From Chitinophagales bacterium (GTDB taxonomy: Bacteria > Bacteroidota > Bacteroidia > Chitinophagales > Chitinophagaceae), in assembly GCA_017303415.1 (NCBI GenBank), contig JAFLBJ010000001.1, forward strand, positions 1,116,001 to 1,180,000: a stretch of 64,000 nucleotides of DNA. Reading direction: 5' to 3'. The position numbers and the translations under genes are program-made. The notes below the pieces were generated by a model. That model did not search any database. It was not told where the DNA came from and saw nothing but the letters and a program-made list of their open reading frames with translations. Shown piece after piece: positions 4,789 through 60,735 of the stretch. How positions within the stretch are numbered: position 1 is the stretch's first letter; every line of letters starts with the position of its first letter.

Positions 4789-4790
4789 AA

Positions 4791-5990: not shown

Positions 5991-7073
5991 ATGGAGTCAT
6001 TTTCCGGTATATATTATCTCGGCGAGGGTCAACCGCAATCAGTGCGTGTTTCTTTTGGGCTACAAAAAATGACCATCCATTTTGAGGATGGCACGGGACG
6101 TGAGGTATTCTGGTATTATGACAAAATTCTCCGGCAGGCATTTCAGCAGGTGGGTACCACCCGGGTCAAATACCTGGGCATTCCGCTTCAAACGATCGAG
6201 GTGAACCACCCAGGGTTTGCCGAGGCTTTGCAACAAAAATTGGGGAAGAATGACCGGTCCTGGTTACGTAAGACATTTGGGAATGGAGCCTCGACGCTGG
6301 TAAAGGTCCTTCTGGTCCTACTGGCCTTGATGGTTTCTTTTTATATCTGGGGAATTCCATTTTTGGCGGAAAGGCTTGCGAGGCGGGTGCCTGTTTCATA
6401 TGAGGAAAAACTGGGGGACGGGATGATGAGCACCCTGCTTTCCGGGTATACCACCAATGACCGACAGACCCTGCTGCTCAATGATTTTTTTGCTGAGATG
6501 AAGATCGAAACGGCCTATGATATCCACATCACGGTGGTGAAGGAAGATGTAGCCAATGCCTTTGCTGTACCCGGGGGCAATATTGTGGTGTACGACCGGT
6601 TGCTCAATGATATGGATAATTACGAGGAACTGGCAGCGCTTTTATCACACGAATTCACGCATATCCAGAACAAACATACCACCCGATCCCTCTTCCGCTC
6701 TTTGGGCTCCTCCCTTTTTCTTTCCATGCTCTTTGGGGATATGGGCGGGGTGATGAACCAGGCAATGCTTCAGGCCGACCAGTTAAAAACACTCAACTAC
6801 TCACGGAAACTGGAGAAAGAGGCCGACCTGGACGGGCTTAAAATTCTGGCCGATAGAAAGATCGACGGAAATGGGTTTGTGGGATTATTTAAACTTTTGG
6901 AAAAGGAAGTACAGCAATCGGGCGAAGATGTCCCTGCCGAATGGATCAGCTCCCACCCCGACCTCAAAAACCGGATCGAATACATCAAAGCAGACCCGAT
7001 GTTCAATAAGAATGGCGTAGCGAAGAACGAGACGTTGGAGGCTTTGTTTCAGCGGATGAAGGAGGATAGATGA
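5991..7073 (+). CDS. M48 family membrane metalloprotease
   Basis: The protein has an N-terminal beta-rich domain of about 85 residues (DUF7092-like), one transmembrane helix near residues 104-124 and a C-terminal M48 peptidase domain. The zinc motif HEFTH places His220, Glu221 and His224, and the third ligand is probably the Glu of KEADLDG near residue 276. Family members act in envelope protein quality control; with one membrane span the protease domain should face the periplasm. The last codons run into the tandem-repeat region that follows, and the stop at 7071 lies at the edge of the left arm. Confidence 0.9.
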   Translation: MESFSGIYYLGEGQPQSVRVSFGLQKMTIHFEDGTGREVFWYYDKILRQAFQQVGTTRVKYLGIPLQTIEVNHPGFAEALQQKLGKNDRSWLRKTFGNGASTLVKVLLVLLALMVSFYIWGIPFLAERLARRVPVSYEEKLGDGMMSTLLSGYTTNDRQTLLLNDFFAEMKIETAYDIHITVVKEDVANAFAVPGGNIVVYDRLLNDMDNYEELAALLSHEFTHIQNKHTTRSLFRSLGSSLFLSMLFGDMGGVMNQAMLQADQLKTLNYSRKLEKEADLDGLKILADRKIDGNGFVGLFKLLEKEVQQSGEDVPAEWISSHPDLKNRIEYIKADPMFNKNGVAKNETLEALFQRMKEDR

Positions 7074-7250
7074 TGGAGGACGGAGGACGGATGTTGGTTG
7101 TTGGATGACAGATGACGGATGTTGGATGTTGGATGTTGGAAGGGAGTCGAAGGGGCCGAGGGTGGCTGTCATCAGTCATCAGTCATCAGTCATCTGTCAT
7201 CCAACATCCGTCATCTGTCATCCGTCCTCCGTCATCTGTCACCCTTCATC
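7069..7250. repeat. Heptamer-built inverted repeat (GATGACG/GATGTTG type)
   Basis: The left arm (about 7069-7140) consists of GGAGGAC, GGATGTT, GATGACA and GATGACG units, and the right arm (about 7182-7250) of their complements. Two blocks pair exactly: ACAGATGACGGATGTTGGATG with its complement, and GGAGGACGGATG with its complement. They are separated on the left by an extra 14 bases, that is two heptamers, absent from the right. It lies between the M48 and DUF1800 genes. An open frame runs through it from 7112, but its translation is a Ser/Val/Ile/His repeat and is not believed to be protein. Confidence 0.85.
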
Positions 7251-7291
7251 CCCCCATTAAACCTTCCCCCCCAACCCCAGTCCAACCCCCC

Positions 7292-8749
7292 ATGTCACTA
7301 TCCCTTAAAACCAGGAATCACCACCTCATGTGGAGGGCCGGTTTTGGCCCTTCTGTGGAGCAATTGGCCGACCTGGACACCCTATCTCCCGCCCAATTAT
7401 TTAAAGCCCTGCAGCAATCTTCAAAAACCACTCCCGCGTATATGGATGTGGCAGGGGACTACCTGGACGGATTAAAGGCCGGGTTGGAAGAGGCCGGCCG
7501 CCAGCAAAAGAAAGAGCTGAGCCAGGAAGAGAAAAAGAAAATGCAGCAAATGTCGAGGGAAAGGATCCGCAGCCTGAACCTGACCTGGTTCAAGGAAATG
7601 GTGAATTCGGACGCCCAGCTTCGCGAAAAATTCGCGCTCTTCTGGCATGGCCATTTTGCCTGTCGCAACCTCAATGTTTATTACCAGCAAGGGTTACTGG
7701 ACATTCTTCGCAAAAATGCACTGGGAAGTTTTAGAGATATGTTGCATGCCGTTTCCAAATCAGCGGCCATGCTCAACTTTTTAAATAATCAACAAAACCG
7801 GAAAGACCATCCCAATGAAAATTTTGCCCGCGAGGTAATGGAACTCTTTACCCTGGGACGTGGAAACTATACCGAACAGGATATCAAGGAGGCCGCCCGG
7901 GCCTTTACAGGTTGGTCGGCCAACCTGCAGGGGGAATTTGTATTTCGACGGTTTCAACATGATACCGGGATAAAGACCGTTTTGGGCCGAACCGGAAACC
8001 TGACGGGAGAGGAGGTTTTGGACCATTTACTGGCGCAAAAACAAACTGCCCGGTTCATTACCCGCAAACTGTATCGGTTCTTTGTCAATGAGCAGGTGGA
8101 TGAGGCAAAAGTGGAATGGTTGTCTGAACGTTTCTATCAAAGCAATTACCAGATCAGTAAACTGGCCGAGGATATTTTTACCAGCGATTGGTTCTTTGAC
8201 GAAAAAAATACCGGAAATCATATCAAATCACCCGTTGAGCTATTGGTAGGTATCCAGCGCATGTTGCCCATGCAACTCGAGAATGAAGAAAGCCTGTTGT
8301 TTTTACAGAAAGCCCTGGGTCAGATTTTGTTCTATCCTCCCAATGTGGCGGGTTGGCCCGGAGGTAAATCATGGATCGACAGTTCAACATTACTGTTGCG
8401 GATGCGGATACCCCAACTGATCGTGGATGCGGATGAATTGAATATACGCGCCAAGGATGACGATGACCAGCAAATGGGAAAAAGGAATGATGCGGATAAA
8501 ATGCTGGTAAAAGGAATGAACAGAAGGGCATTGATAAAAGCAACGATCGATTGGAAGACGTATAACGAACAATACAGCAAAACAGAAAAGGATAAACTGG
8601 TGGATAGCATTGTGGGAAACCTGCTGATGGCAGACAGCCAGATCAATGGTTCATTGATCGTTCAGTTCAGTAATTCCAAAAGCCGGGAGGATTTTGTCCG
8701 GTCGGTAACCTTGCAGTTAATGAGTTTGCCGGAATATCAGCTTGCATAG
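7292..8749 (+). CDS. DUF1800 family protein
   Basis: This 485-residue protein is a DUF1800 member, recognised by the WRAGFGPS segment at the N-terminus, the FWHGHFA segment, NENFAREVMELFTLG and the following AARAFTGW. The function is unknown; the family is regularly encoded beside a DUF1501 protein, as here. The open frame continues upstream to 7112, but that part translates the tandem-repeat hairpin, so the ATG at 7292 (MSLSLKTRNHH) is chosen. There is no obvious signal peptide from this start. The partner gene follows after 102 bases that hold another hairpin. Confidence 0.88.
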   Translation: MSLSLKTRNHHLMWRAGFGPSVEQLADLDTLSPAQLFKALQQSSKTTPAYMDVAGDYLDGLKAGLEEAGRQQKKELSQEEKKKMQQMSRERIRSLNLTWFKEMVNSDAQLREKFALFWHGHFACRNLNVYYQQGLLDILRKNALGSFRDMLHAVSKSAAMLNFLNNQQNRKDHPNENFAREVMELFTLGRGNYTEQDIKEAARAFTGWSANLQGEFVFRRFQHDTGIKTVLGRTGNLTGEEVLDHLLAQKQTARFITRKLYRFFVNEQVDEAKVEWLSERFYQSNYQISKLAEDIFTSDWFFDEKNTGNHIKSPVELLVGIQRMLPMQLENEESLLFLQKALGQILFYPPNVAGWPGGKSWIDSSTLLLRMRIPQLIVDADELNIRAKDDDDQQMGKRNDADKMLVKGMNRRALIKATIDWKTYNEQYSKTEKDKLVDSIVGNLLMADSQINGSLIVQFSNSKSREDFVRSVTLQLMSLPEYQLA

Positions 8750-8755
8750 CAAAAA

Positions 8756-8804
8756 GACCGCGGTAGGAAGTCCGGAGTCCAGCTTCGGACTTCCTACCCC
8801 GGTC
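8756..8804. repeat. 19-bp inverted repeat between DUF1800 and DUF1501 genes
   Basis: GACCG and GGTAGGAAGTCCG (8756-8774) pair with CGGACTTCCTACC and CGGTC (8786-8804) with one internal mismatch around an 11-base loop. The arm carries partial tandem units of the GGAAGTCC/GGAGTCC kind. No T-run follows, so it is not a standard terminator. It may act on the mRNA between two genes that probably share a transcript. Confidence 0.75.
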
Positions 8805-8851
8805 TCCGGACTTAGAACATCCGATATCGAAAAAAAAATAACGTTACAACC

Positions 8852-10048
8852 ATGGTACGAAGAAGAGAGTTTTTACAATTGGGTTCCCTGGCCACGGCTT
8901 CACTTTTGGTGCCGCGTTTTTTAAAGGCTTTTGACGGAAAGGCTGTTGTGCCCAAGGGTAACAGGGTATTGGTAATCTTGCAGCTCAGCGGAGGGAATGA
9001 TGGATTGAATACCGTCATTCCTACCTACAATGATATTTATTATAAGGAGCGCCCCCGGCTGGGAATTGAAAAGACCAAGGCGCTTGCTCTTTCGGATGAA
9101 GCCGGTCTTCACCCTTCACTGGTAGCCTTCAAAGGCTTGTACGATGAAGGCGAATTAGCCATCCTCAACAGTGTCGGTTATCCCAATCCGGATCGTTCCC
9201 ATTTTCGGAGCATGGATATCTGGCATAGCGCAAGCGACAGCCGCGATTATTGGAACAATGGTTGGGTGGGCAGGTATCTTGATGCGCAATGTAGTGGTTG
9301 TGATAAACCTACCTATGCTCTTGAATTGGATGATATGTTGAGCCTCGCGCTGAAGGGCGAACAAGTCAATGCCATTGCCATGCGCGATCCACGCCGGCTT
9401 TATGGTACCGCCAATGAACGTTTCTTTCGGGAAGTAATGAAGCAGCATGTAGACGAACCCGGTGAGCAACCTGTGGACTATTTATACAAGACCATGGCCA
9501 CGACGCTGTCTTCTGCCGATTATATTTTCCAGCAAAGTAAAATGAGCCCCACCAAGGCTGTTTACCCGCAAACTCAGTTAGGTACCGATCTCAAAACCAT
9601 CGCCTCCCTGATCTACTCAGATATCAACACCAAAGTATATTACCTGTCATTGGGAAGTTTTGATACCCATGTCAACCAGCAGTTTACCCAACAACGTTTA
9701 TTTACAGAAATGAACGATGCGATTGCTGCTTTTACCAAAGACCTGAAAGCCAACGGTCGTTTCGACGATGTGATGCTGATGACCTTTAGTGAATTTGGAA
9801 GAAGGGTATCACAAAATGCCAGCGGGGGTACCGATCATGGAACGGCCAACAATATGTTCTTTGTAGGTGGTGGGTTGAAGAAAAAAGGATTGATCAATGC
9901 CTTACCCGATCTCAGTGATCTGGAGGAAGGTGACCTGAAATACAAGGTGGATTTTAAATCCGTCTATGCTACAGTGTTAAATAAGTGGCTGGGAGCGGAT
10001 GACGCGGCCATCCTGAAACAATCCTATCCTCATCTTTCCTTTATTTGA
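8852..10048 (+). CDS. DUF1501 family secreted protein
   Basis: The 398-residue protein begins with a twin-arginine-type signal (MVRRREFLQLGSLATASLL), pointing to export in folded form. The DUF1501 domain relates to the alkaline phosphatase/sulfatase superfamily; LQLSGGNDGLNTVIP near the N-terminus, the DRSHF segment and FSEFGRRV followed by GGTDHGTAN near the C-terminus are the conserved parts. The substrate of these proteins is unknown. It pairs with the upstream DUF1800 gene, a very common arrangement in Bacteroidota and Planctomycetota. Its stop lies only 8 bases from the end of the convergent transporter gene, with no terminator between them. Confidence 0.9.
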   Translation: MVRRREFLQLGSLATASLLVPRFLKAFDGKAVVPKGNRVLVILQLSGGNDGLNTVIPTYNDIYYKERPRLGIEKTKALALSDEAGLHPSLVAFKGLYDEGELAILNSVGYPNPDRSHFRSMDIWHSASDSRDYWNNGWVGRYLDAQCSGCDKPTYALELDDMLSLALKGEQVNAIAMRDPRRLYGTANERFFREVMKQHVDEPGEQPVDYLYKTMATTLSSADYIFQQSKMSPTKAVYPQTQLGTDLKTIASLIYSDINTKVYYLSLGSFDTHVNQQFTQQRLFTEMNDAIAAFTKDLKANGRFDDVMLMTFSEFGRRVSQNASGGTDHGTANNMFFVGGGLKKKGLINALPDLSDLEEGDLKYKVDFKSVYATVLNKWLGADDAAILKQSYPHLSFI

Positions 10049-15009: not shown

Positions 15010-16053
15010 ATGCCGGCCAACGATGTGCATTACCACGATTATTTGCAGCTTGATAAAATACTCAATGCCCAGTTCCCCGAAAGCATAAAAAGAGGTGAGC
15101 CGGCACATGATGAAACCCTTTTCATCATTATTCACCAGGCCTATGAACTATGGTTCAAACTCATTCATCACGAAGTAGATTCAGCCATCGGTATCCTTCG
15201 CCAACCAGAAGTGAATGACAACTCCCCGGAATTGCAAACATTGGTTCATCGTCTTCAACGTGTAGTTACTACACTCCGAGTATTGGTTCACCAAATCGAT
15301 ATCATGGAAACCATGAACCCGATGGACTTTCTTGATTTTCGGGACATGTTGCGTCCTGCCTCCGGATTTCAAAGCTGGCAGTTTAAGGAACTCGAGGCAA
15401 AACTGGGTTTGAAATTTGAGCACCGACATGGCAAGGAGTACTATGTTTCTCAACTACGACCTGAACATGTCGGGATCATCAAAAATGCGGAGGAGCAACA
15501 GTCGCTTTTACAATTGCTCAATGAATGGTTGGAGCGGATGCCATTTTTTGACCAGGCCCATAATTGGGCGGAGTTCAGGACCTCGGGTCCTGTAGAGAAA
15601 GGCATGCATCCATTCTGGCAGGAATACAAATACCGGTTGACGCAAAGTCTCGCAGAAGCGGAGAAAGGAAACCTGCAGGCCTTTGAAGAAGTTTTTTTTA
15701 ATGGAACAGATGCTGAGCGTACCTTATCTCCGGCCTCTTGCCGTGCTGCTCTCTTTATAATGTTATACAGGGGGTATCCTTTGTTGCAATTGCCCTATCA
15801 ATTATTGAATGTGTTACTGGAAATTGATGAGCAACTGAGTAACTGGCGTTACCGCCATATGAATATGGTTCACCGGATCATTGGCACCCGGATCGGCACG
15901 GGAGGAAGCACAGGGAAGGATTATTTGCGTGCCGCTGCAGACAAGCATTATATCTTTAAAGATATTGCCCGGTTAACGAGTTTTCTGATTGAGCGGAAGC
16001 GGTTACCTGAGTTGGGAGTGGAAATGGAGCGCAAGCTGGGATTTATAATTTGA
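15010..16053 (+). CDS. kynA: Tryptophan 2,3-dioxygenase
   Basis: This heme enzyme opens the indole ring of L-tryptophan to give N-formylkynurenine, the first step of the kynurenine pathway. At 347 residues it is slightly longer than many bacterial TDOs. Key residues of the family are seen: the distal His42 in HQAYELWFK, Arg111 in FRDMLRPASGFQS for the substrate carboxylate, the proximal heme ligand His283 in WRYRHMNMV, and the GTGGSTG loop at about 296-302. No other kynurenine-pathway gene is in the window. It follows purD by 34 bases. An inverted repeat after the gene separates it from the convergent barrel gene. Confidence 0.95.
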   Translation: MPANDVHYHDYLQLDKILNAQFPESIKRGEPAHDETLFIIIHQAYELWFKLIHHEVDSAIGILRQPEVNDNSPELQTLVHRLQRVVTTLRVLVHQIDIMETMNPMDFLDFRDMLRPASGFQSWQFKELEAKLGLKFEHRHGKEYYVSQLRPEHVGIIKNAEEQQSLLQLLNEWLERMPFFDQAHNWAEFRTSGPVEKGMHPFWQEYKYRLTQSLAEAEKGNLQAFEEVFFNGTDAERTLSPASCRAALFIMLYRGYPLLQLPYQLLNVLLEIDEQLSNWRYRHMNMVHRIIGTRIGTGGSTGKDYLRAAADKHYIFKDIARLTSFLIERKRLPELGVEMERKLGFII

Positions 16054-16080
16054 AGATTGGAAGATTTGACACGAATTATG

Positions 16081-16140
16081 ACGAATGAGTCGAATGACAC
16101 GAATTTTATTTAATCAATTCGTGACATTCGACTCATTCGT
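16081..16140. repeat. 25-bp inverted repeat with 9-base tandem units
   Basis: Arms 16081-16105 and 16116-16140 pair with a single mismatch. The left arm reads as GACGAATGA, GTCGAATGA, CACGAATTT, so the unit here is nine bases rather than seven. A further partial unit (GACACGAATTAT) precedes it from 16068. It lies between convergent genes (ends 16053 and 16176) and is the only terminator-like structure there. Confidence 0.8.
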
Positions 16141-16175
16141 TTCAATACGTGCTTATGGGTAAAACGTGTTAAGGC

Positions 16176-16634
16176 TTAATTGCCGAATGTATACCTCACA
16201 CCCAATCCTCCCCAGCCGCCATAGAATCCACGACCGGAACCAAATTCAATGGATGGTTGCCAGTCAAGCGAAAGGTTGATCGGGGCGTTGTTGAATTTAT
16301 AATCCAGGCCGAGCACCCCATCTACTCCGAAATAGGCACCATCGCCATATTTGGAATTATAGAAACCGACGTGGGCACCGGGTCCGATATACCACCGGAG
16401 GCCACCGGCATTGCTGATATCTCCGTGGATCTCATACAGTCCCGTAAAGCGGGCGCCCTGGCTCCAAAAATATCCGATCAGTTCGCCGGCATTTTGTTCG
16501 TTAAAAAAGTGTTTCAAGGTGATTCCACCTCCATCCCAGAACTTAACACCCAGGGCTGTGGTATAATCCTGTGCTGAGCTACGGGTAACGGATACGGTGA
16601 GAAAAATGACTGCCGCTACGATAATCTTCTTCAT
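16176..16634 (-). CDS. Small outer-membrane beta-barrel protein, 152 aa
   Basis: A signal peptide ending at SSAQ (about residue 21) is followed by alternating Gly/aromatic strands and a C-terminal strand VRYTFGN that resembles the end signal of outer-membrane barrels. About eight strands fit in the mature length, so a small OmpX/OmpA-type barrel is likely. It has no motif for enzymatic activity. Similar proteins are common, unnamed single genes in Bacteroidota. The upstream neighbour on the same strand (the MFS gene) ends 77 bases before it; no shared function is evident. Confidence 0.7.
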   Translation of the reverse strand: MKKIIVAAVIFLTVSVTRSSAQDYTTALGVKFWDGGGITLKHFFNEQNAGELIGYFWSQGARFTGLYEIHGDISNAGGLRWYIGPGAHVGFYNSKYGDGAYFGVDGVLGLDYKFNNAPINLSLDWQPSIEFGSGRGFYGGWGGLGVRYTFGN

Positions 16635-35114: not shown

Positions 35115-36467
35115 ATGAAGCAATTCCTCCTGGCAGCGTTTGTACTTACCACTGTAGTAAGCGTTACATCCTGCGTAAAGGTGAATTTTGATGAGACCGA
35201 GGTAACGGCTCCGGTTGATTCCACCAGCAATGTCATTACCGGAAAAGTTACTACCAGCCGGTTTTATGCCCGTGGTACCTATATCCTGAAAGGATATGTA
35301 TATGTTACTGAAGGCGCTACCCTGACCTTTGAATCTGGTTGTGTTGTGAAAAGTGATATTACCGAGAAAGGGGCTTTGATCATCGAGCGCGGCGCCAAGC
35401 TGATTGCTGATGGTACAGCTGCCAATCCGATTGTTTTTACCAGTGGTAAAGCGGCTGGTTCACGTGCGCCTGGTGACTGGGGTGGTATCATCCTGCTGGG
35501 TAAAGCACCCACTAACCGTCCTCTTGACCCGGCTCCAACGATCGAAGGAGGTGTTGCCCGTCAATATGGTGGAACTGATCCGCTGGATGAAAGTGGTATC
35601 CTCCGCTATGTACGTATCGAGTTTGCCGGTATCGCCGCCGAACCCGGATCTGAGATCAATGGGTTGACCTGTGGTGGTGTTGGTTCCGGTACCATCATTG
35701 AAAATGTAATGGTCTCCTTTGGGAATGATGATGCCTACGAATTCTTTGGTGGCACGGTGAATGCGAAACGACTGATCGCTTTTGCCACTGCCGATGATGA
35801 TTTTGACTTTGACTTTGGTTATACAGGAAAGATCCAGTACGGTGTTTCCTGCCGTAAGCCTGACTTCGTTGATGCAGGTGATGCAGGTAATGCCATTGAG
35901 TGCGATAATGACGGTTCTGGTACAGCTGCTACCCCGAAGACCAAACCCCAGTTGAGCAACTTTACCTTTGTTGGCCCCAATAATGCCGCTGGTACTGCAG
36001 CCAACCACAACTTCTCCAACCGCTGGCGCCGGGCCACGCAGTTCATCCTGCGTAACTCCATCCTGATGGGTCACCCCGATGCCGGTTTCTCTCTGGAGTC
36101 TGATGCAACCATTAACGACTACTATATTAACAACCTTTCTGAATTCAAAAATAACCTGGTGCATGCCAACAGCACACCGTATAAATCAGGTAATGCAGCC
36201 ATCGCTACCAACGCCCAGTTACAAACCAAGGCAGAGAGCGAAGGTTGTATCACCTATGCGGATGCCGCTTCCATTCAACTGGAAAGCCCTTTCTATAGCA
36301 CCAGCCCCAACTTTTTACCTAAAACCGGCTCGCCCGCACTTACTGGCGCAAGCTATTCTGGAATGAACTCCTTCTTTACCAGCGGTACATTTATCGGTGC
36401 CTTTGGTACAACCAACTGGGCGACTGGCTGGACGGAATGGGATCCGCAGAATAAAGTGTACAACTAA
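35115..36467 (+). CDS. Beta-helix surface lipoprotein, 450 aa
   Basis: A lipoprotein signal peptide with Cys20 (VVSVTSC) leads to a repetitive Gly/Thr/Asp-rich protein that fits a right-handed beta-helix: successive short strands such as ADGTAANPIVFTSGKAAG, RAPGDWGGIILLGKAP and IENVMVSFGNDDAYEFFGG. No catalytic residues of pectate lyases were recognised. The frame opens further upstream at 35025, inside the repeat, but ATG at 35115 is clearly the start. It follows the TonB receptor and is probably its surface partner. A pair of this kind (receptor plus beta-helix lipoprotein) is frequent in Chitinophagaceae and has no assigned ligand. Confidence 0.82.
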   Translation: MKQFLLAAFVLTTVVSVTSCVKVNFDETEVTAPVDSTSNVITGKVTTSRFYARGTYILKGYVYVTEGATLTFESGCVVKSDITEKGALIIERGAKLIADGTAANPIVFTSGKAAGSRAPGDWGGIILLGKAPTNRPLDPAPTIEGGVARQYGGTDPLDESGILRYVRIEFAGIAAEPGSEINGLTCGGVGSGTIIENVMVSFGNDDAYEFFGGTVNAKRLIAFATADDDFDFDFGYTGKIQYGVSCRKPDFVDAGDAGNAIECDNDGSGTAATPKTKPQLSNFTFVGPNNAAGTAANHNFSNRWRRATQFILRNSILMGHPDAGFSLESDATINDYYINNLSEFKNNLVHANSTPYKSGNAAIATNAQLQTKAESEGCITYADAASIQLESPFYSTSPNFLPKTGSPALTGASYSGMNSFFTSGTFIGAFGTTNWATGWTEWDPQNKVYN

Positions 36468-36550
36468 GACCAGGATTTTGGGATTGTGCGGATGTTTAGG
36501 ATTTGTGTGGAGTAATTTGGATTGATGAGATTTATTTTTGATAGATTAGG

Positions 36551-36622
36551 CCGGGATGGTTTATTTTGAACTACAATTTTTCAAATGAAAAGAAGTTCAA
36601 AAAATATCATCCCGGCTTTTTC
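36551..36622 (+). terminator. Long intrinsic terminator
   Basis: GCCGGGATG (36551-36559) pairs with CATCCCGGC (36608-36616), and inside it TTTTGAACT pairs with AGTTCAAAA, continuing to a TTTTC/GAAAA tip. The stem is about 23 bp with a few mismatches, and TTTTT follows at 36617-36621. It ends the TonB receptor/beta-helix transcript. The hairpin covers the ATG at 36585 that would open the next gene, so that ATG is unlikely to be the true start. Confidence 0.75.
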
Positions 36623-36653
36623 ATGGAGGAATACTAGTCGGTTTAAATTCCCC

Positions 36654-40539: not shown

Positions 40540-41418
40540 TTTTAGTCCTATTTCAGAATTATTCTGAAAATTGTTAGGAACGGAATAGCCGAGGTTACCT
40601 TATAAGCAGAATTGTTAAAACAACGAGCCATTCTGTTTAAAATACCTAAAATTTTTGATGATTTATTTAACATACAAAAATTCATATCCCGTTATTTTTA
40701 AATGAAGAAGATTATAACGGAATGGCCTCAGTTTTATACTGCAACAATTTTAGATTGGAAGAGGTTGTTGAAGCAGGATAAATACAAGGATATTGTAATT
40801 GCTAGCCTCCGATTTCTTGTTAAATCCAGAAGGGTTCGGATTTTTGGATTTGTAATAATGTCTAATCACATCCATCTTATTTGGCAAGTTGAACCTGATT
40901 TTAAACAGTCTGACGTAAAAAGAGATTTTCTAAAGTACACGGCTCAAAAAATAAAGGCAGACCTGCGAAGAAGCCATCCACAGGTGTTGGATCGGTTCCT
41001 TGTTTGCTCATCCGATCGCCACTATCAATTTTGGAAGAGAGGATCTTTAAGTGTTGAATTAAGATCGCGTGCTGTGTTTTTTCAGAAATTGGAATATATT
41101 CATTGGAATCCTGTAAAAGCGTTTCTTTCTTCTACGCCGGAAGAGTATAAGTATTCTTCAGCTTCTTTTTATGAAACTGGCTTGGATAATTGGGGTTTTT
41201 TAACTCATTATACTGAGTGAAAGGAGGACATGCAGGAAGCACCAACGATATAGGTTGTTGGTGCTCCCTTTTAGTCTTACCTCTTAAATATTCTGATACT
41301 AGTCGGGAAACACCAACAACGGCGCGGGTAAAACACCAATGATATTGGTTGTTGGTGTTCCCTTTTAGTCTTACCTCTTAAATATTCTGATACTTGTCGG
41401 GAAACACCAACAACGGCG
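40450..41418 (+). mobile_element. RAYT/REP element
   Basis: The transposase gene at 40702 is bracketed by palindromic units in inverted outer orientation: CGCCATCGTTGGTG at 40449-40462 on the left and CACCAACAACGGCG at 41405-41418 on the right. The two ends could mark the cut sites of a single-strand transposition. The segment has a lower GC content by eye than its neighbours and interrupts no gene. No target-site duplication is expected for this class and none was seen. Confidence 0.65.
40702..41220 (+). CDS. REP-associated tyrosine transposase (RAYT, Y1_Tnp)
   Basis: At 172 residues it has the Y1 transposase/HUH fold. The metal-binding HUH motif is NHIHLIW (His56, His58) and the likely nucleophile is Tyr132 in LEYIHWNPVKAFL, followed by PEEYKYSS, all typical of REP-associated transposases. 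These enzymes cut and join single strands at REP palindromes. The REP hairpins found on both sides fit its role. Such genes are normally single copy and are thought to be domesticated to spread REPs rather than themselves. The frame is intact. Confidence 0.92.
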   Translation: MKKIITEWPQFYTATILDWKRLLKQDKYKDIVIASLRFLVKSRRVRIFGFVIMSNHIHLIWQVEPDFKQSDVKRDFLKYTAQKIKADLRRSHPQVLDRFLVCSSDRHYQFWKRGSLSVELRSRAVFFQKLEYIHWNPVKAFLSSTPEEYKYSSASFYETGLDNWGFLTHYTE

Positions 41419-52846: not shown

Positions 52847-53957
52847 AGCCATCGTTATTGGTGCCGGAATTGCAGGTCTTGCCACGGCCCGCGCCCTCGC
52901 TGTTAAAGGATATCAGGTCACTGTCATAGAAAGATCCAGCCGGGCTGTTGGCGCTTCCATTCGCAATTTTGGAATGGTATGGCCAATAGGTCAACCGGAT
53001 GGTGTATTATATGAAAGGGCAATGCGTTCGCGAAGTATATGGATAGATGTTTGTACTGAGGCCGGTATCTGGTTTGATCCCGTTGGCTCTCTGCACCTGG
53101 CCTACCGACCGGAGGAATGGCAGGTGTTGGAAGAACTACAAGTTGCTTACGGTCATCGCCAAACCCGTTTGCTGAATGCAAATGAAGTAAGGGCCTGTTC
53201 CCCTTTTTCACAACCAGAGGGATTATTGGGTGGATGGTTTAGTCCGACTGAAACCATTGTAGATCCCCGACAAGCCATTGCCCTGATTCCTAACTGGCTC
53301 GAAGGAAAATATGGTGTAAAATTTATTTGGGATAAAGCAGTTACCGATATTGCCTATCCTGCCGTATATGCCGGAAAAGAAATGTGGGAGTCAGACCGGA
53401 TCTTTGTTTGTAGTGGTGCTGATTTTGAAACGCTTTATCCCGAACTTTTCCAGGAAGCGCCCATTACAAAATGTAAACTTCAAATGATGCGTATGGCCGG
53501 TCAGCCCAATGGGCAACGGATCGGCCCCGCGCTTTGTGGCGGACTCTCTCTGGCACATTATACCAGTTTCCGGGCGGCCCCTTCTTTGGACGGATTGAAG
53601 AAAAAATTTGAACAGGATTATCCTGAATTACTGAAATGGGGTATTCATGTGATGGTTTCTCAAAACCAGGCCGGTGAACTTACGGTAGGCGATTCACATG
53701 AATACGGACCGACGCATGACCCATTTGACCGGCAGTATATTAATCAACTGATCCTCGATTACCTTTCTCAATTTGCACGCTTTCCCAATGAACAGGTCAT
53801 TGAGACCTGGAACGGCATTTATCCCAAACTCACCAATGGCGGAACGGAATGGGTGCTACAACCCGAAAGTGGTGTAACCATCATCAATGGTGTCGGTGGG
53901 GCAGGGATGACATTGAGTTTTGGGTTGGCGGAGGAGGTGGTGGTTCGGGAGGCGTGA
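52839..53957 (+). CDS. FAD-dependent oxidoreductase, TIGR03364 family
   Basis: The 372 residues show the DAO/glycine oxidase fold: dinucleotide loop IGAGIAGLATARALA at the N-terminus, SIRNFGMVWPIGQ as the flavin-near segment typical of the subgroup, and NGVGGAGMTLSFGLAEEV at the C-terminus. Family members act on amines; TIGR03364 proteins are repeatedly linked to phosphonatase-like genes and proposed to deaminate an aminophosphonate to an aldehyde. The final residues REA and the stop codon come from the tandem-repeat array that follows. Confidence 0.88.
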   Translation: MPKAIVIGAGIAGLATARALAVKGYQVTVIERSSRAVGASIRNFGMVWPIGQPDGVLYERAMRSRSIWIDVCTEAGIWFDPVGSLHLAYRPEEWQVLEELQVAYGHRQTRLLNANEVRACSPFSQPEGLLGGWFSPTETIVDPRQAIALIPNWLEGKYGVKFIWDKAVTDIAYPAVYAGKEMWESDRIFVCSGADFETLYPELFQEAPITKCKLQMMRMAGQPNGQRIGPALCGGLSLAHYTSFRAAPSLDGLKKKFEQDYPELLKWGIHVMVSQNQAGELTVGDSHEYGPTHDPFDRQYINQLILDYLSQFARFPNEQVIETWNGIYPKLTNGGTEWVLQPESGVTIINGVGGAGMTLSFGLAEEVVVREA

Positions 53958-54199
53958 TTTTTCGTGAGACGTGAGGCGTGAATGGTGAATGGTGAATAGT
54001 GAATAGTGAATAGTGAGACGTGAAACGTGAGATGTGAGATGTGAGATGTGAGATGTGAGATGTGAGATGTGAGAAATATTTGGGTTTGTAAGTTATATGT
54101 TTTTACTATTCACTATTCACCATTCACTATTCACTATTCACGCCTCACGTCTCACGCCTCACGAAAAATCACGCCTCTCGCTTCACGTCTCCCGAAAAA
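53951..54199. repeat. Large heptamer-built inverted repeat (GTGAGAC/GTGAATA type)
   Basis: The left arm (53951-54073) runs through GTGAGAC, GTGAGGC, two GTGAATG, three GTGAATA, GTGAGAC, GTGAAAC and six GTGAGAT. The right arm (54106-54199) gives the complements of the outer part, with the block GGCGTGATTTTTCGTGAG matched at both outer edges. The six GTGAGAT units have no partner on the right. The array fills the gap between convergent genes; the FAD gene ends in its left arm and the histidine kinase in its right. Confidence 0.92.
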
Positions 54200-55252
54200 T
54201 CACCCCTCTCGCCTCGCATTCAACGTAAACCCGATCGTAGTACCAATATTTTCTGTGCTACGCACATGAATGGTTTGACCATGGGCTTCTACAATATGTT
54301 TACAGATGGCAAGACCAAGACCAGAGCCGGTAACATCTACAGAGCGCCCACGTTCCGTGCGGTAGAATCGTTCAAATATCCGGGGAAGATGTCTTTCCTG
54401 GATACCCATACCATCGTCACTGATCTCGATCAGTATTCTTTTTCCATCCGTATTGTAAGCACTGGCGGTGATCGTACCACCGTTTTTGCCATATTTGATA
54501 GAGTTCTCAACGAGGTTGGTTATAACCTGTCGGATCTTTTCTTTATCGGCAAAGACATACAGTGGGGATTCGCACCCTTTCTTGATCGCACAACGGATAT
54601 TTCGGGGTTCTGCCTTCAGGGAAAGAACTTCGTACACTTCACGTATCAGATCCTGTATCACAAAATTTTCTTTGTACAACATTAATTCTCCCCGCTCCAG
54701 TTTTGAGATTTCATCCAGGTCATCAATCAGATTGGAGAGTCTTTCCACATTACGGGATGTTTTTTCCAGGAATGCCTTATTGACCTCGGGATTAAAAAGT
54801 GCTCCTCCCAGGAGCGTATCCACATATCCCTGTATGGCAAAGACCGGGGTCTTGAATTCATGCGCCAGGTTCTGTAAAAATTCCTTTCTGAATTGCTCAT
54901 TCTTCCGGAGCATGTCGATCTCTTTCTGTTGTTGTTCTCCCCATGCTTCCACATCCTCTCTTACTTCATCAATGCTTTTTTTGGGTAAAATATATTTGTA
55001 GTATGTCTCTTCGCGTTTACTCGCTTTGGTCTGGTGGATCATTTTATAGATCAACTTGATCTTCCGGTAAATGAATTTTTCAAGGGTAAAAAGAATTAAG
55101 GCATATCCACCGATCAACATGAGGCCAAAGGCAATGGCTGCATGTTGCCAATTTCCATTCAATACATAGATACCCAGGGCTACGGGGATCGAAAGGATCA
55201 ATGCCGTAAACAGGGAAAGCTGTTTGGGAGAGAGGTTTTTGGTATCGAACAT
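54200..55252 (-). CDS. Sensor histidine kinase, PhoR-like
   Basis: The 350-residue protein has two membrane helices (about 12-32 and 38-57), a linker coiled coil and the kinase core: H box NLAHEFKTPVFAIQGYV with His131, N box TNLVENSIKYG, G1 DDGMGI, F box LPRIFERF and G2 GSGLGLAICKHI. There is almost no periplasmic loop, so it probably senses in the membrane. It lies after the response regulator gene on the same strand. The frame continues upstream to 55450 through repeats; ATG at 55252 is chosen. Its last codons (ARREG) and stop are part of the array. Confidence 0.93.
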   Translation of the reverse strand: MFDTKNLSPKQLSLFTALILSIPVALGIYVLNGNWQHAAIAFGLMLIGGYALILFTLEKFIYRKIKLIYKMIHQTKASKREETYYKYILPKKSIDEVREDVEAWGEQQQKEIDMLRKNEQFRKEFLQNLAHEFKTPVFAIQGYVDTLLGGALFNPEVNKAFLEKTSRNVERLSNLIDDLDEISKLERGELMLYKENFVIQDLIREVYEVLSLKAEPRNIRCAIKKGCESPLYVFADKEKIRQVITNLVENSIKYGKNGGTITASAYNTDGKRILIEISDDGMGIQERHLPRIFERFYRTERGRSVDVTGSGLGLAICKHIVEAHGQTIHVRSTENIGTTIGFTLNARREG

Positions 55253-55264
55253 GGGGCAAAGATA

Positions 55265-55540
55265 GACCAGGATGGGGTTGTTTGGATGACAGATGACGGA
55301 TGACGGATGACAGATGACGGATGACGGATGACGGATGACAGATGACGGATGACGGATGACAGATGACCGAGGAGAGATGTTGGATGTTGGATGACCTATG
55401 TCAAAATAAATATATTGAAAACAAAGCCAGTATAAACGAAACAGTATCACCCCTCTCCAACATCCAACATCTCTCCTCGGTCATCCGTCATCTGTCATCT
55501 GTCATCCAAAATCCAACATCCACCCAACCCCATCCTGGTC
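55265..55540. repeat. Heptamer-built inverted repeat with unique 16-bp outer arms
   Basis: GACCAGGATGGGGTTG at 55265-55280 is the exact complement of 55525-55540. Inside, the left arm is a long run of GATGACA and GATGACG heptamers; the innermost block GATGACCGAGGAGAGATG and TTGGATGTTGGA is matched on the right at 55455-55485. The left arm is much longer than the right, the surplus being whole heptamers. It lies between the response regulator and kinase genes of one operon, its right end touching the regulator stop codon. Confidence 0.92.
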
Positions 55541-56219
55541 AAAGCTCGAATTTATACCCCACCCCCTTCACGGTGCGGATACAATCGATGCCGAGTTTTT
55601 GGCGCACTTTGCGGATGTGTACATCAATGGTGCGATCGCCAACAATGACATCATTTCCCCATACCTGGCTGAGGATCTCATTGCGAAGAAAAACTCGCCC
55701 CGGTTTTGATGCCAGGAGATAAAGTAACTCAAATTCTTTTTTCGCTAATACGATTTCCTTGCCGTCGAGTTGGATCAGGAATTTCTCGGGGTCGATGGTC
55801 AGGCCATTTACTTTGATCAATTTGACCTCGGATTTATTCAGCCGGCGGAAAAGGGCATTCACCCGGCTGATAAAGACCTTGGGACTAATGGGTTTGCTGA
55901 TATAGTCGTCGGCTCCCGTTTCAAGGCCTTTGATCTGGGTTTCCTCGTCACTCAACGCGGTAAGAAACAAGATCAGGGTTTCCTTAAAAGCCGATTGGGA
56001 ACGGAGGATCTTACAAACTTCCACCCCCGTCTTTTTGGGCATCATGATGTCCAGCACAATCAGATCAGGCAGGGCGAATTTGGCCCTTTCCAATGCTTCA
56101 TCCCCGTCTTTTGCCGTAAAAACCTGGTAGCCTTCATTGACCAGGTTATACTTCAGGATCTCGAGAATATCCGGCTCATCATCTGCGATCAATACCTTTC
56201 TGGATTTTTTTTCGGCCAT
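55539..56219 (-). CDS. Response regulator, OmpR/PhoB family
   Basis: The 226 residues contain a receiver domain (about 8-120, acidic pair in IADDEPD, phosphoacceptor Asp57 in IVLDIMMPK, Lys in YISKPIS) and a winged-helix DNA-binding domain (about 130-226, with KKEFELLYLLASKPGRVF and DRTIDVHIRKVRQKL). It precedes its kinase, separated by the heptamer palindrome. TAGGTTTG on the minus strand (56238-56245), an exact -7 match, lies 18 bases before the start codon. The regulon is not evident. Confidence 0.94.
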   Translation of the reverse strand: MAEKKSRKVLIADDEPDILEILKYNLVNEGYQVFTAKDGDEALERAKFALPDLIVLDIMMPKKTGVEVCKILRSQSAFKETLILFLTALSDEETQIKGLETGADDYISKPISPKVFISRVNALFRRLNKSEVKLIKVNGLTIDPEKFLIQLDGKEIVLAKKEFELLYLLASKPGRVFLRNEILSQVWGNDVIVGDRTIDVHIRKVRQKLGIDCIRTVKGVGYKFEL

Positions 56220-56237
56220 GAGATGCTAAAGTTTGCG

Positions 56238-56245
56238 CAAACCTA
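56238..56245 (-). promoter_or_regulatory. -7 element of the response regulator gene
   Basis: Read on the minus strand it is TAGGTTTG, an exact TAnnTTTG. The start codon begins at 56219. No clear -33 TTTG was seen at 19-21 bases. Confidence 0.5.
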
Positions 56246-56359
56246 AAGGAAATTGTTTTGATGGGATTTGTCCCAGTCGCTCATAACATAGACTTAATAT
56301 AAAGTTAATAATTACTGGGTTGCCCACCGGATTACTAGTAAAAAGTGGATATAGGGTAT

Positions 56360-56367
56360 TAAATTTG
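56360..56367 (+). promoter_or_regulatory. -7 element of the 734-aa protein gene
   Basis: TAAATTTG, an exact TAnnTTTG, ends 13 bases before the ATG at 56381, implying a very short leader. It is in the divergent region shared with the response regulator. Confidence 0.5.
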
Positions 56368-56380
56368 TCTTTCGTTTGGT

Positions 56381-58585
56381 ATGTCCAAATCAATACTTTA
56401 TACCTGTTTTATCTGTATCCTGGTCCTGAAGGGCCCTGTCGCATCTTTTGCCCAGGACCTGAAGCCGGATATCCGCCGCGCTTTGTACCATGATTTTGTG
56501 GACAAACAGCAGACCATGGCCCTGGCTGCCGACGGTCAGGCTGACCGATCCTACAAGCCAACCGGGAATGAAGAAATTGATTTTATCCTGACCGATGCCC
56601 TGGTTACCCGGGTGGATGCCCTCCAGTACCAGTTTGAAAAGGATTCCATCTATCCACATCCAGTCAAAGTGCGATATATCCGTGGTTTAGAGGAGATTTT
56701 GAAGAACCTGAATACAGATACCACCCGCGATCGGCAAGCAGCCCTCAACCTGCCCCGGGTCCTGGCCACTTATGAGGAGTTTATTGCCTGGGACCGGGAC
56801 AATAAACCACTGGATAGCCTGGTTGAATCGCTTCCTTATGCAGTAGCCCTGCCCCTGGTACGGTCAGCCGCATTTGACCTGAACCCTTCCATAAAGACCT
56901 GTCGGCAGATCATCATCCGGAAATATTGTGAGCTCAACCCATCTCAGATATTTTTCACACTCAGGCAGTACCCCGATCTGCCTTATGCGGACAGCCTGAT
57001 CAAAGTAGCCGCCTATCGCTACCCAATGAGCCTGTACGATTATGCCTCAGCCAATAATGCACTGAGTGCACGGATCCGAAAGCTGGAAGATCCCCTGATC
57101 AGCACCATTTCCCGGATGGCAGTAAGCGGTGGTAGCGGGCAGTTGTATTTTCCTTTTCTCGACAATATCATTAAAGGCAAAGTGAGCCAACGCGAAGTAG
57201 ACGCCGTTAAGAATGATGCGGAGGAGTATTATAAACTATTGGTCAGGACGCGTATTGATTATGTAGAAAGGGCCATTGCCGGTGATACTACCTATGGTTT
57301 TAAGGCTTTGGCGGATATGTTGAAAAAGAAGGCCACCGATGTCTACATCAATGTCATCAACGGGCTGCACGATCAACCTGATGCGGTACGGTTCAGGGTA
57401 TTGCAATCACTCAATGCACAGGAGTTATATTATCTCGCTGTTCTTAGCGATGGGGAAATATATACGTCCAGCTATGTAAAAGGCGTCTATCCCCTGATGA
57501 TGGCCAAAGTAAATCACCGTCCCGATTCCCTGCTGAAACTGGTGCGCTTTGATAAGTTCCGGAAATTCATCAAGATGGCGGCAGGGTACAATACACTCAG
57601 CGATTTTCTGGGTGCTTTCCCGAATCACAATGATGCACAAACGCTGATGACCGCCTTTGTCAACGGTCTGGAAAATGGAGAAGGATTGGAAGAAGGAGTG
57701 GATGTGGCCGACTCCTATGGCAGTATCTCGGAAACCAATAAAACGGTAGCCGAGGATATGGTCACCAATGTAAAGATCAATTACCGGAAGAATTTCAACG
57801 CCAATAACCGCCGGGGCATGGTGATCTATGACCTTTTGTATAAACTTTTTCTGTCAGCCGATTCTACCAAGCCCATTGATCTTTCCAAAGAATTAGGCAT
57901 TCCACCAGTCTATACCGTGAATTATGATATGTTGTCGGATGATTCCGCGCGTGTTATCCAACAAGTATTTTTTTATGGAGATGAAGATCAGGATGGACAA
58001 TTGTCCTTTATCAACTTCATGGCCATGTTCAAAGGCAAACCAGACTGGAGCATCAGTGAGAATGACTACTGGGTCACGATCAAATCGGTAAAAGGGAAAT
58101 CGGTCTGGATCTTTGCCAATAAACCCAAACTGGGGGATGATGATCCGGATGAACAGGCGCAGATCCGATTGGGCGAATACCTCAAAGCCAACAATCTGCA
58201 TCCTACGGTGGTCATTCACCGGGGGCATAGTTATCATTTGCCTTCCACACTGGAGAAACTGGCTCCTTCAGCGGGTATAGTCGTGCTGGGTTCCTGTGGA
58301 GGTTATAATAACCTGAATGATGTACTCTCAATCAGCAGTGATGCACATATCATTTCTTCCAAGCAGGTGGGGACAAAATCGGTGAACGAACCCATCCTGG
58401 AAGAGATCAATAACAGTCTGCTGGCGGGTAAGGACATTGACTGGATCGGTATGTGGCAGCGCCTTTCAGTCCGATTTAGCAAGAACGCGGCTGCACGCGA
58501 AAAATTTGATGATTATATCCCTCCCTATAAGAACCTGGGAGCGATATTTATAAAGGGTTATCGTATTGCTATGGCTAAAGGTTAA
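56381..58585 (+). CDS. Uncharacterised exported protein, 734 aa, with a possible His/Cys dyad
   Basis: A signal peptide (ending SFAQ near 25) precedes a largely helical region to about 520. Near residue 530-545 lies GDEDQDGQLSF, a DxDxDG calcium-loop-like run lacking the final Glu of an EF-hand. The C-terminal domain has the strand-turn VVIHRGHSYH (His613, His616) followed by VVLGSCGGYNN (Cys639), the order and hydrophobic setting of the His and Cys in clan CD (caspase/CHAT) peptidases, though the spacing is short. No family was recognised. It sits before the ABC exporter; the last 20 bases may overlap that frame. Confidence 0.75.
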   Translation: MSKSILYTCFICILVLKGPVASFAQDLKPDIRRALYHDFVDKQQTMALAADGQADRSYKPTGNEEIDFILTDALVTRVDALQYQFEKDSIYPHPVKVRYIRGLEEILKNLNTDTTRDRQAALNLPRVLATYEEFIAWDRDNKPLDSLVESLPYAVALPLVRSAAFDLNPSIKTCRQIIIRKYCELNPSQIFFTLRQYPDLPYADSLIKVAAYRYPMSLYDYASANNALSARIRKLEDPLISTISRMAVSGGSGQLYFPFLDNIIKGKVSQREVDAVKNDAEEYYKLLVRTRIDYVERAIAGDTTYGFKALADMLKKKATDVYINVINGLHDQPDAVRFRVLQSLNAQELYYLAVLSDGEIYTSSYVKGVYPLMMAKVNHRPDSLLKLVRFDKFRKFIKMAAGYNTLSDFLGAFPNHNDAQTLMTAFVNGLENGEGLEEGVDVADSYGSISETNKTVAEDMVTNVKINYRKNFNANNRRGMVIYDLLYKLFLSADSTKPIDLSKELGIPPVYTVNYDMLSDDSARVIQQVFFYGDEDQDGQLSFINFMAMFKGKPDWSISENDYWVTIKSVKGKSVWIFANKPKLGDDDPDEQAQIRLGEYLKANNLHPTVVIHRGHSYHLPSTLEKLAPSAGIVVLGSCGGYNNLNDVLSISSDAHIISSKQVGTKSVNEPILEEINNSLLAGKDIDWIGMWQRLSVRFSKNAAAREKFDDYIPPYKNLGAIFIKGYRIAMAKG

Positions 58586-58616: not shown

Positions 58617-60404
58617 GTGTCTTCAACTACATCCAAAAGTCTGCTTGATTTAAGCCTCCTCCGGAGGATCATGCATTTTGCCTCACCGTACAAGAGACGG
58701 TTTTGGTTGTCAGTGGTTCTGGCCATTGTACTGGCCGTATTTACTCCCATACGCCCCATTCTTATTCAGCAAACAGTTGATAAATATATTGCCGGGCGAT
58801 TGGTGGAAGGATTGATCCTGATCACCGTGATACAGATCGGCTTATTGCTGGTGGAAACCGCCATCCGGTTTTGGTTTACCTATATAACCGCTTGGCTGGG
58901 CCAATCGGTGGTGAAAGACATGCGGGTAAAAGTATTCAATAAGGTACTCCACCTGAACCTGTCCCAATTTGATAAAACACCGATCGGCACGCTCACCACC
59001 CGGACCGTGGATGATATTGAACGGATCAATGATGTTTTTGCAGATGGCCTGATCCCTATCATTGCCGACCTGTTATCCATCATTTGTGTATTAGGTTATA
59101 TGTTTTGGGCAGATTGGAAACTGACACTGGTGGCGTTGATCCCCTTTCCCATACTTATCCTGGCCACCTATTATTTTAAGAATTCGGTGAACAAGAGTTT
59201 CCATCGTGTGCGCAACGCGGTAGCCCAACTCAATGCGTTTGTGCAGGAACACCTGACGGGTATGGCGGTGGTTCAGGCCTTTGCGGCGGAAGAAAGAGAG
59301 TTTGGGAAATTCCGGAAGATCAATAAGGAACACCGCAATGCAAATATCCATGCCATCTTTGCTTACTCCATCTTCTTTCCTATTGTGGAGATCATATTGG
59401 CCTCGGCCATTGGATTGGTGGTCTGGAAAACCTCACACCAGGCATTGGCATTGGGAGAAAACCGCCAGGGTACCCTGATGGCCTTTATCCTTTGTTTGAA
59501 CCTGATCTTTCGACCCCTCCGTGTGATCGCCGATAAGTTCAATGTGTTGCAAATGGGTATGGTGGCCGGGGAAAGGGTGTTCAAAGTGCTCGACAATGAT
59601 GACTTTATTAAAAATGAAGGCGATCATGCTCCTGCCCGGGTGGAAGGAAGGATCGAGTTTGATAAAGTCGGATTCTCCTATGTACCCGGCAAACCGGTGT
59701 TAAAGGGGGTTTCCTTTCAGGCCGAACCCGGAAAAACAGTAGCCATAGTGGGGCATACCGGTAGTGGAAAGACCACGATCATCAGTTTGCTCAACCGGAT
59801 GTATGAAACAGGGGAGGGCAGGATCTTGTTGGATGGAGTAGATATCCGGGAATATAAATTGGATGCTCTACGGGCCAGAATAGGTGTTGTATTACAGGAT
59901 GTATTCCTCTTTTCCGGGTCCATCATGGATAATATTACCCTCCGCAATCCAGAAATACCCCGCGAAAGGGTCGTGGAAGCTGCCAAACTCATCGGCATGC
60001 ACGATTTTATCCTTCGCCTGCCAGGTGGGTATGATTATAATGTGCGGGAAAGAGGGGCCACGCTCTCTCTGGGTCAACGACAGCTCTTGTCCTTTATCCG
60101 GGCTTTATTGTACAATCCGGCCGTCCTGATCCTGGATGAAGCCACTTCATCAATTGATACGGAAAGTGAGCAACTGATTCAGGAGGCTACCGAAAAACTC
60201 ATTTCCGGACGTACCTCCATCATCATCGCTCACCGTCTTTCCACCATCCGCCGCACCGACCTGATCCTGGTGATGGATAAGGGGGAAGTAAGGGAAATGG
60301 GCACCCATGAGGAACTGCTGGAAAGGGGAGGATATTACCACCGGCTTTATCAGTTACAGTTTGAAAAACAGCGGGTTGTGGGGCGCGAGTTTCGTGAGAC
60401 GTGA
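58617..60404 (+). CDS. ABC exporter (MsbA/lipid exporter type), fused TMD-NBD
   Basis: The 595 residues comprise six membrane helices (about 20-320) and a nucleotide-binding domain with Walker A GHTGSGKTT, signature LSLGQRQ, Walker B VLILDEATSS and the switch His in IIAHRLST. It forms a homodimeric half-transporter for lipids or drugs. The frame opens at TTG 58566 inside the previous gene; GTG at 58617 (MSSTTSKSLLDLSLLRR) is preferred, and a later ATG at 58671 would drop part of the elbow helix. The last residues REFRET and the stop belong to the heptamer array. Confidence 0.9.
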   Translation: MSSTTSKSLLDLSLLRRIMHFASPYKRRFWLSVVLAIVLAVFTPIRPILIQQTVDKYIAGRLVEGLILITVIQIGLLLVETAIRFWFTYITAWLGQSVVKDMRVKVFNKVLHLNLSQFDKTPIGTLTTRTVDDIERINDVFADGLIPIIADLLSIICVLGYMFWADWKLTLVALIPFPILILATYYFKNSVNKSFHRVRNAVAQLNAFVQEHLTGMAVVQAFAAEEREFGKFRKINKEHRNANIHAIFAYSIFFPIVEIILASAIGLVVWKTSHQALALGENRQGTLMAFILCLNLIFRPLRVIADKFNVLQMGMVAGERVFKVLDNDDFIKNEGDHAPARVEGRIEFDKVGFSYVPGKPVLKGVSFQAEPGKTVAIVGHTGSGKTTIISLLNRMYETGEGRILLDGVDIREYKLDALRARIGVVLQDVFLFSGSIMDNITLRNPEIPRERVVEAAKLIGMHDFILRLPGGYDYNVRERGATLSLGQRQLLSFIRALLYNPAVLILDEATSSIDTESEQLIQEATEKLISGRTSIIIAHRLSTIRRTDLILVMDKGEVREMGTHEELLERGGYYHRLYQLQFEKQRVVGREFRET

Positions 60405-60690
60405 GGCGTGAGGCGTGAGGCGTGAGACGTGAGTTTCGTGAGGCGTGAGGCGTGAGAGGTGAATGGTGAATAGTGAATAGTGAATAGTGAATGGTGAATA
60501 GTGAGTGGTGGATGCCGTAATGGGTTATAAGTTATTGATTTTTAGAGGTAGACTCGACAATACACCGTACTACATTCACTATTCACTATTCACCATTCAC
60601 TATTCACCTCTCACGCCTCACGTCTCACGAAACTCACCTCTCACGCCTCACGCCTCACGTCTCACGAAACTCACGTCTCACCCCTCCCGC
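60388..60690. repeat. Large heptamer-built inverted repeat (GTGAGGC/GTGAATA type)
   Basis: The left arm (60388-60510) and right arm (60574-60690) are made of GTGAGAC, GTGAGGC, GTGAATG and GTGAATA and their complements, with the block GAGTTTCGTGAGACGTGAGG at the outer part of both arms and twice within. The ~65-base centre between them is unique sequence. It overlaps the end of the ABC gene and stops about 45 bases before the atpB -7 element. It is a close relative of the array at 53951. This accounts for most of the 353-base gap. Confidence 0.92.
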
Positions 60691-60735
60691 CTAAAAGGAT
60701 TTTTCCATTTTTTCGGCATTTACACCTCCGACCCC

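Follow-up and report, generated by a model that had tools for sequence, protein, structure and literature searches.

The 64-kb window analysed here, meaning the whole stretch of 64,000 nucleotides, comes from a 3.7-Mb genome of the Chitinophagaceae, where it spans 1116001-1180000 of contig C1, and carries a palindrome that separates the gene of a PhoB-type response regulator from that of its kinase (Table 1). The palindrome is real, with perfect outer arms of 16 bp and perfect inner arms of 30 bp, and as gene-strand RNA it is predicted to fold at -152.4 kcal/mol, compared with -88.5 (sd 5.1) in 200 shuffles (z = -12.6). As stated in the preliminary description, one outer arm touches the regulator stop codon, of which it covers two bases, and the GATGACR heptamers inside are more numerous on the left (11) than on the right (3). 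The outer arms were also described as unique sequence, which is true of the complete 16-mer, whose two exact copies in the whole genome both lie at this palindrome, but not of its parts, since the outer nine bases together with the promoter box beside them (ATCCTGGTC-TATCTTTGC) occur as six exact copies in the genome, all of them 3-5 nt ahead of an ATG or GTG. In a 424-kb sample, made up of the window and 18 further stretches of 20 kb, GACCAGGAT is over-represented (17 occurrences against ~3 expected, 11/17 intergenic). The irregular phrase GATGACCGAGGAGAGATGTTGG, a 22-mer forming the first 22 bases of the inner arm, has no exact copies in the genome other than those in the two focal arms. Intrinsic terminators, defined as a GC-rich hairpin with a T tract, number zero inside 55265-55540, and three terminator-like sites in 53800-56500 compare with 3.1 expected; Rfam models gave no matches at gathering score in the 64-kb window, and the palindrome had no match in a plasmid collection.

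Table 1. Features of the regulator-kinase locus and further heptamer palindromes of the window (G021, same-genus genome used for comparison)
Feature	Position	Strand	Remarks
Short GTGAG palindrome	4790-4854		Gap of convergent genes, 71 bp in both genomes; classical terminator hairpin in G021
GGATGAC/GGATGTT palindrome	7053-7251		
Palindrome, GTGAGRC/GTGAATR dialect	53946-54215		3' of kinase, convergent genes; 242 bp here, -4 bp overlap in G021
Sensor histidine kinase P0001, PhoR-like	54200-55252	-	HisKA and HATPase_c; below the curated cut-off of the named NCBIfam model
TATCTTTG, matching -7 box TAnnTTTG	55257-55264	-	4 nt 5' of kinase ATG, just outside the palindrome
Whole focal palindrome	55265-55540		
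Outer left arm GACCAGGATGGGGTTG	55265-55280	+	Kinase-side edge; perfect complement of 55525-55540
Eleven tandem GATGACR heptamers	55285-55361	+	About six units more than the right arm
Inner left arm, 30 bp	55362-55391	+	Reverse complement of 55456-55485; includes an irregular non-heptamer phrase
Loop, 64 nt	55392-55455		Non-repetitive
Inner right arm, 30 bp	55456-55485	-	Perfect match to 55362-55391
Three GATGACR heptamers of right arm	55486-55506	-	
Outer right arm CAACCCCATCCTGGTC	55525-55540	-	Two final bases belong to the regulator TGA stop
Response regulator P0002	55539-56219	-	Response_reg and Trans_reg_C; PhoB nearest, under that model's cut-off
GTGAGRC/GTGAATR palindrome	60378-60692		Gap 353 bp here, 60 bp in G021

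A very stable gene-strand fold positioned between regulator and kinase invites the idea, put forward in the preliminary description, that it acts as an attenuator lowering kinase expression relative to that of the regulator. Reduced kinase expression is nonetheless unsupported, because the TATCTTTG box lies outside the palindrome, between it and the kinase ATG, as in G021, a genome of the same genus and the nearest relative among those searched, where TAGCTTTG stands at the same distance from the kinase start without any palindrome. The motif TAnnTTTG is given as the flavobacterial sigma-A -7 consensus, within the Bacteroidota, in the available text of PMC9723704. Among 63 relatives with a placeable kinase start, nine have an exact copy of it within 40 nt ahead of the kinase (shuffles: mean 1.3, maximum 8), and 49 have the shorter TAnnTT there (maximum 32 in 500 shuffles). 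Judged from sequence, the box and its enrichment in relatives argue that kinase transcription would be independent of passage through the palindrome, although read-through from the regulator may contribute to that transcription. Similar palindromes also lie between convergent and unrelated genes, which likewise counts against attenuation, and this very improbable reading was dropped for want of support.

The regulator and kinase genes had been expected to be normally overlapping or adjacent, which fits distant relatives (median gap -4 bp, nine loci) but not closer ones, where at 66 loci with a kinase identity of at least 55% the gap has a median of 63 bp and ranges from -4 to 490; the survey covered 80 loci, five of them with no upstream regulator. 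For nine relatives with a gap of at least 40 bp, no more than 10 of 200 shuffles reached the palindrome score of that gap, and only the four strongest (L032, L043, L051, and L083) had two shuffles or fewer at their score, which is suggestive, though not proof, of independent palindromes at this gap in other species. On the minus strand, the repeat has one stop-free frame in the kinase direction (55253-55450), so that a longer open reading frame reaches 55450 and gene callers could lengthen the kinase by 66 residues; this extension through the repeat to a GTG start is probably spurious.

The focal palindrome and its kin are a recent build-up. The window is collinear with G021, and the operon gap, 286 bp long here, is a repeat-free 44 bp in this same-genus relative. 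All four palindromic gaps of the window that are readable in G021 are without the repeats there (Table 1), and lag-7 tracts, reflecting a 7-nt spacing, number zero in 271 kb of that genome. Two elements were left out of the comparison, namely the one at 7053-7251 after gene g04, since the corresponding G021 gap is rearranged, and one at 34967, whose gap was not placed by alignment. Next to the palindrome at 60378-60692, the downstream promoter-like -7 sequence CCCTATCTTTGCG is kept in both genomes, and the arms often provide the stop codon of an adjoining gene, as they do for the genes that terminate within repeat sequence at 53957 and 60404.

The focal palindrome is one of many and no special device of the regulator-kinase operon. 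The 424-kb sample contains 39 heptamer elements, distributed over codirectional (23), convergent (nine), and divergent (four) gaps, open reading frames (two), and one edge; palindromic arms are found in 24 of them, which by extrapolation gives roughly 200 such elements per genome. Tracts with a lag of 7 number 59, those with lags 4-6 and 8-13 number 0-1 each, and enrichment is confined to lag 7 and its multiples, so that the elements class with tandem heptanucleotide repeats, their 7-nt head-to-tail unit exceeding all other unit lengths. They are dispersed and mostly intergenic (2/39 in open reading frames; 446 GATGACR dimers genome-wide), and several word sets exist side by side in the genome, including GTGAGRC/GTGAATR, GGATGAC/GGATGTT, and AGCTAAT, as well as sets of other spacing. 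Counting palindromes of any kind, a score of at least 25 is attained by 43/269 intergenic regions and by none of the 269 shuffled regions or 180 coding pieces; the corresponding figures elsewhere are 2/88 in G021, 7/95 in G004, 3/43 in G015, and 8/312 in the loci of 80 relatives.

Heptamer elements sit at stop codons, and downstream promoters are spared where they could be compared. Of 43 stop-side edges, 37 are no more than 30 nt away from a stop codon (median distance 3 nt). This close adjoining of stop codons would agree with a selected 3'-end hairpin, which in either direction would terminate or shield the transcript arriving from upstream, at this locus the mRNA of the regulator, and would keep the next promoter insulated. 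Also in keeping with such a role, strong palindromes (score of at least 20) are most frequent in convergent gaps (17/27, compared with 26/194 codirectional and 5/48 divergent), a count that includes ordinary terminators, and in one convergent gap of equal length (4790-4854) the palindrome stands in the place of the G021 terminator and could be functional. As a general replacement for terminators the palindromes were rejected, since that gap is the single replacement-like case and canonical terminators are not depleted, being as frequent at the gene 3' ends of heptamer gaps (8/39) as at others (23/153), in some instances within the loop. Arm mismatches are without G-U bias, and the hairpin is dispensable at two sites, because G021 manages with the 44-bp gap and the -4 bp overlap where 286 and 242 bp are found here. 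Selection for a 3'-end hairpin is accordingly considered unlikely as an account of the class.

The two arms of an element are more alike than the arms of different elements. When partners were permuted within dialects, leaving out one element of a third dialect, own-partner arms scored 540 against 348 (sd 30) in dialect A (n = 11) and 613 against 368 (sd 40) in dialect B (n = 12), values reached by 0/20,000 permutations in either case. The advantage is smaller for the longest exact match between own and other arms (median 23 vs 19 in dialect A and 29 vs 17 in dialect B), and exact matches between different elements extend up to 40-45 nt. With all 24 elements ranked together, the own partner was best in 5/24 by normalised and 12/24 by raw score, an unclear result because dialects and lengths are mixed in that ranking, and the within-dialect test was used instead. 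Other variants of the irregular phrase likewise come in matched pairs, two of which lie on contig C1 at 1106905/1107279 and 2667162/2667340. Neighbouring arms on opposite strands face inward in 22/22 pairs, and three more pairs are on the same strand. In codirectional elements, read in the transcribed sense, arm mismatches comprise 32 of G-U type and 28 of A-C type; G-U mismatches are thus not in excess, and selection for pairing at the RNA level, which was considered as a candidate, is unsupported.

Together, the likeness of own arms, the private 22-mer, the inward orientation, and the lack of G-U bias favour copying of arms at the DNA level, with heptamers gained and lost afterwards. The suggestion in the preliminary description that the arms arose by template switching is supported by the private 22-mer and by own-partner scores above those of permuted pairs; its argument that copying ran on into unique flanking sequence needs to be changed. 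Because the kinase-side arm runs on into the promoter sequence that has several genomic copies, copying more probably went from the kinase side to the regulator side.

The focal palindrome is therefore best viewed, with reasonable though not strong confidence, as a lineage-specific quasi-palindrome of heptamers, one product of DNA-level slippage and template switching that has been tolerated. A short array of 7-nt words beside the regulator stop codon and the kinase promoter would have grown by replication slippage, and template switching inside a nascent hairpin would have produced the inverted duplicate and might also keep the arms alike. The left arm would subsequently have gained about six heptamers. 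Such a process would act on DNA, and its product would be tolerated because the space between a stop codon and the promoter of the following gene can accommodate it without damage to either gene or to the kinase -7 box. The focal hairpin looks more like tolerated, perhaps nearly neutral, DNA growth than a regulatory switch, and caution is warranted before each such hairpin is taken as a local regulatory device. Counting against slippage and template switching is the constant inward orientation of the arms (22/22), which a purely random process does not predict.

The same words are unevenly spread among related genomes. GTGAATR dimers are present in 75/147 genomes of the family with highly uneven counts, namely 248 in this genome and 1 in G021, 326 in G003 and 5 in its congener G103, 238 in G055, 143 in G028 and 1 in its congener G122, and 105 in G128 and 14 in its congener G038; counts as low as 1 or 2 carry little weight, because by our own estimate ~0.1 per genome is expected by chance for a 14-mer with two R positions. 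The 21-mer version was found in 9/296 genomes across the phylum. GATGACR dimers (446 here, 37 in G004, 17 in G051, 11 in G120, and 0 in G021) match at all in 29/147 genomes. Stretches of G003, G055, G028, and G060 contain 16, 32, 11, and 9 lag-7 tracts, respectively, with 0-3 for each of the lags 4-6 and 8-13, figures in which density is biased, and unit length less so, because known matches partly guided the choice of stretches. In general, heptamer arrays of other genera use the same or different 7-base words, and no rival unit length appears. Heptamer arrays apparently within coding sequence, as judged from the surrounding sequence, were seen in other Chitinophagaceae at L056:5310-5340, L057:4381-4409, and L146:1123-1158.

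Slippage alone cannot place the same words at hundreds of loci (446 GATGACR dimers against 0 in G021), so some spread in trans is needed, and the spread of shared words among scattered lineages is covered by none of the explanations considered here. Identical words at hundreds of sites, absent from a same-genus genome and amplified patchily across genera, would be in keeping with a non-autonomous mobile element of REP/BIME or MITE type that inserts at gene ends and expands later. Four GGATGAC palindromes (L116:13960-14345, L116:15068-15354, L118:6184-6466, and L125:17542-17884) are moreover built around one dispersed nested core, GAGACCTCTGGTCTCG and a partner ~115 bp apart, the centre of which is inverted in one L116 copy relative to the other. 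This core may represent a separate repeat family or be evidence of whole-element spread, and since four elements share it, whole elements may indeed have spread. The arms, on the other hand, are private to each locus, and several unrelated heptamer word sets exist per genome, contrary to the conserved short hairpin unit that all copies of a REP, BIME, or REPIN family have in common; visual inspection of the gaps compared with G021 showed neither fixed ends nor target duplications, and the association with RAYT (Y1_Tnp) genes typical of these families was not found, as none of four Y1_Tnp genes has a lag-7 heptamer array in its 3.2-3.3 kb locus. A mobile element is therefore an improbable origin.

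Beyond the slippage and template switching preferred for the focal site, a broader and distinctly speculative proposal, unlikely as it stands, is a heptamer-writing process of Chitinophagaceae that would amplify a few 7-nt words in trans at hundreds of gene ends, copy inverted arms, and switch on in single lineages. If real, it would point to a dedicated enzymatic activity (polymerase, reverse transcriptase, or recombination) that advances in 7-nt steps. That bacterial genomes carry an excess of heptamers has long been noted, but no explanation has gained acceptance. In pairs of array-rich and array-poor congeners (this genome and G021, G003 and G103, G028 and G122), comparison of gene content and mutation spectra would allow direct tests of how the 7-nt unit and arm copying arose.

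In the cyanobacterium Calothrix a single genome likewise carries several distinct tandem heptamers, which have been named STRR. The closest published precedent is found in Xanthomonas, with the word GGGAATC, and in the available text on these arrays, which also mentions the Calothrix heptamers, both they and the GGGGA(C/T)T arrays of Nostoc are tandem heptamers, mostly intergenic and codirectional with few divergent cases, located near a neighbouring open reading frame and variable between related species (PMC4692102). Convergent array pairs number 70 (Xcc) and 75 (Xac) in Xanthomonas, for which that text reports no function found (PMC4692102). Paired arrays on opposite strands that are always convergent are thus a shared feature, matching the inward pairs seen here. 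The Xanthomonas word is, as far as described, G-rich, linked to G-quadruplexes, and the one main word per genome, whereas several unrelated words are present here, arms are near letter-for-letter copies that include irregular phrases, and a same-genus genome is without them. GATGACR, GGATGTT, GTGAGRC, and GTGAATR contain no GGG tracts, and because its main words lack them, the focal class is only similar to, and not a member of, the Xanthomonas type. An older idea held that 7 nt corresponds to the stretch of DNA held by polymerase, according to the available text (PMC4692102; PMC4679880).

Other comparisons are similarly partial. TAACTGA direct repeats of Beggiatoaceae, cyanobacteria, and some Bacteroidetes are also intergenic heptamers of patchy occurrence, missing in some near relatives with shorter gaps, and the available account gives no known spreading mechanism; there the repeats are mostly upstream of starts, and the main genome described has a single inverted case, whereas inverted pairs after stops are the rule here (PMC4679880). 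Geobacter metallireducens has arrays of 7- or 8-nt repeats paired on opposite strands at variable distance, as here, but with other words, proposed IHF/HU sites, and 16-48 aligned sequences in three classes, as presented in the accessible sections (PMC2700814). Template-switch hairpins offer a parallel in that reverse-complement copying creates and repairs arms in one event; in the portion of the report available they are described for RNA genes and as single events, in contrast to the genome-wide class on heptamer arrays considered here (PMC8794818). In the literature located, no such elements are named in Chitinophagaceae.

A stop-codon filter, by which words would be kept because a stop-bearing heptamer closes all three frames, is a weak lead. 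In this genome, 36 stop-adjacent tracts contain 272 sense and 63 antisense stops, a count that is partly circular because a stop-bearing array ends the open reading frame it enters. For arrays at least 3 nt past the stop, the comparison is 14 vs 2 with one tie here and 12 vs 7 with two ties in other sampled genomes, where it becomes 4 vs 4 at 15 nt.

Several further palindromes and repeats of the sampled stretches may be recorded. At L125:1243-1516 and L132:17365-17673, the loop between heptamer arms has a hairpin and T run resembling an ordinary intrinsic terminator. Intergenic palindromes composed of other words (TGACACGAAT, GACCAGGATT, AGTCCGGA, GTGTCCTTC, and CGCAGAGAACACGG), some of them spaced 8 or 9 nt, occur in the window at 16034-16195, 36448-36644, and 8730-8911 and at L130:4038-4257 and L122:3420-3604. 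In the window, a Y1_Tnp (RAYT-like) gene with roughly two units of a 94-bp repeat behind it (40702-41418) may belong to a REP-type element unrelated to the heptamers.
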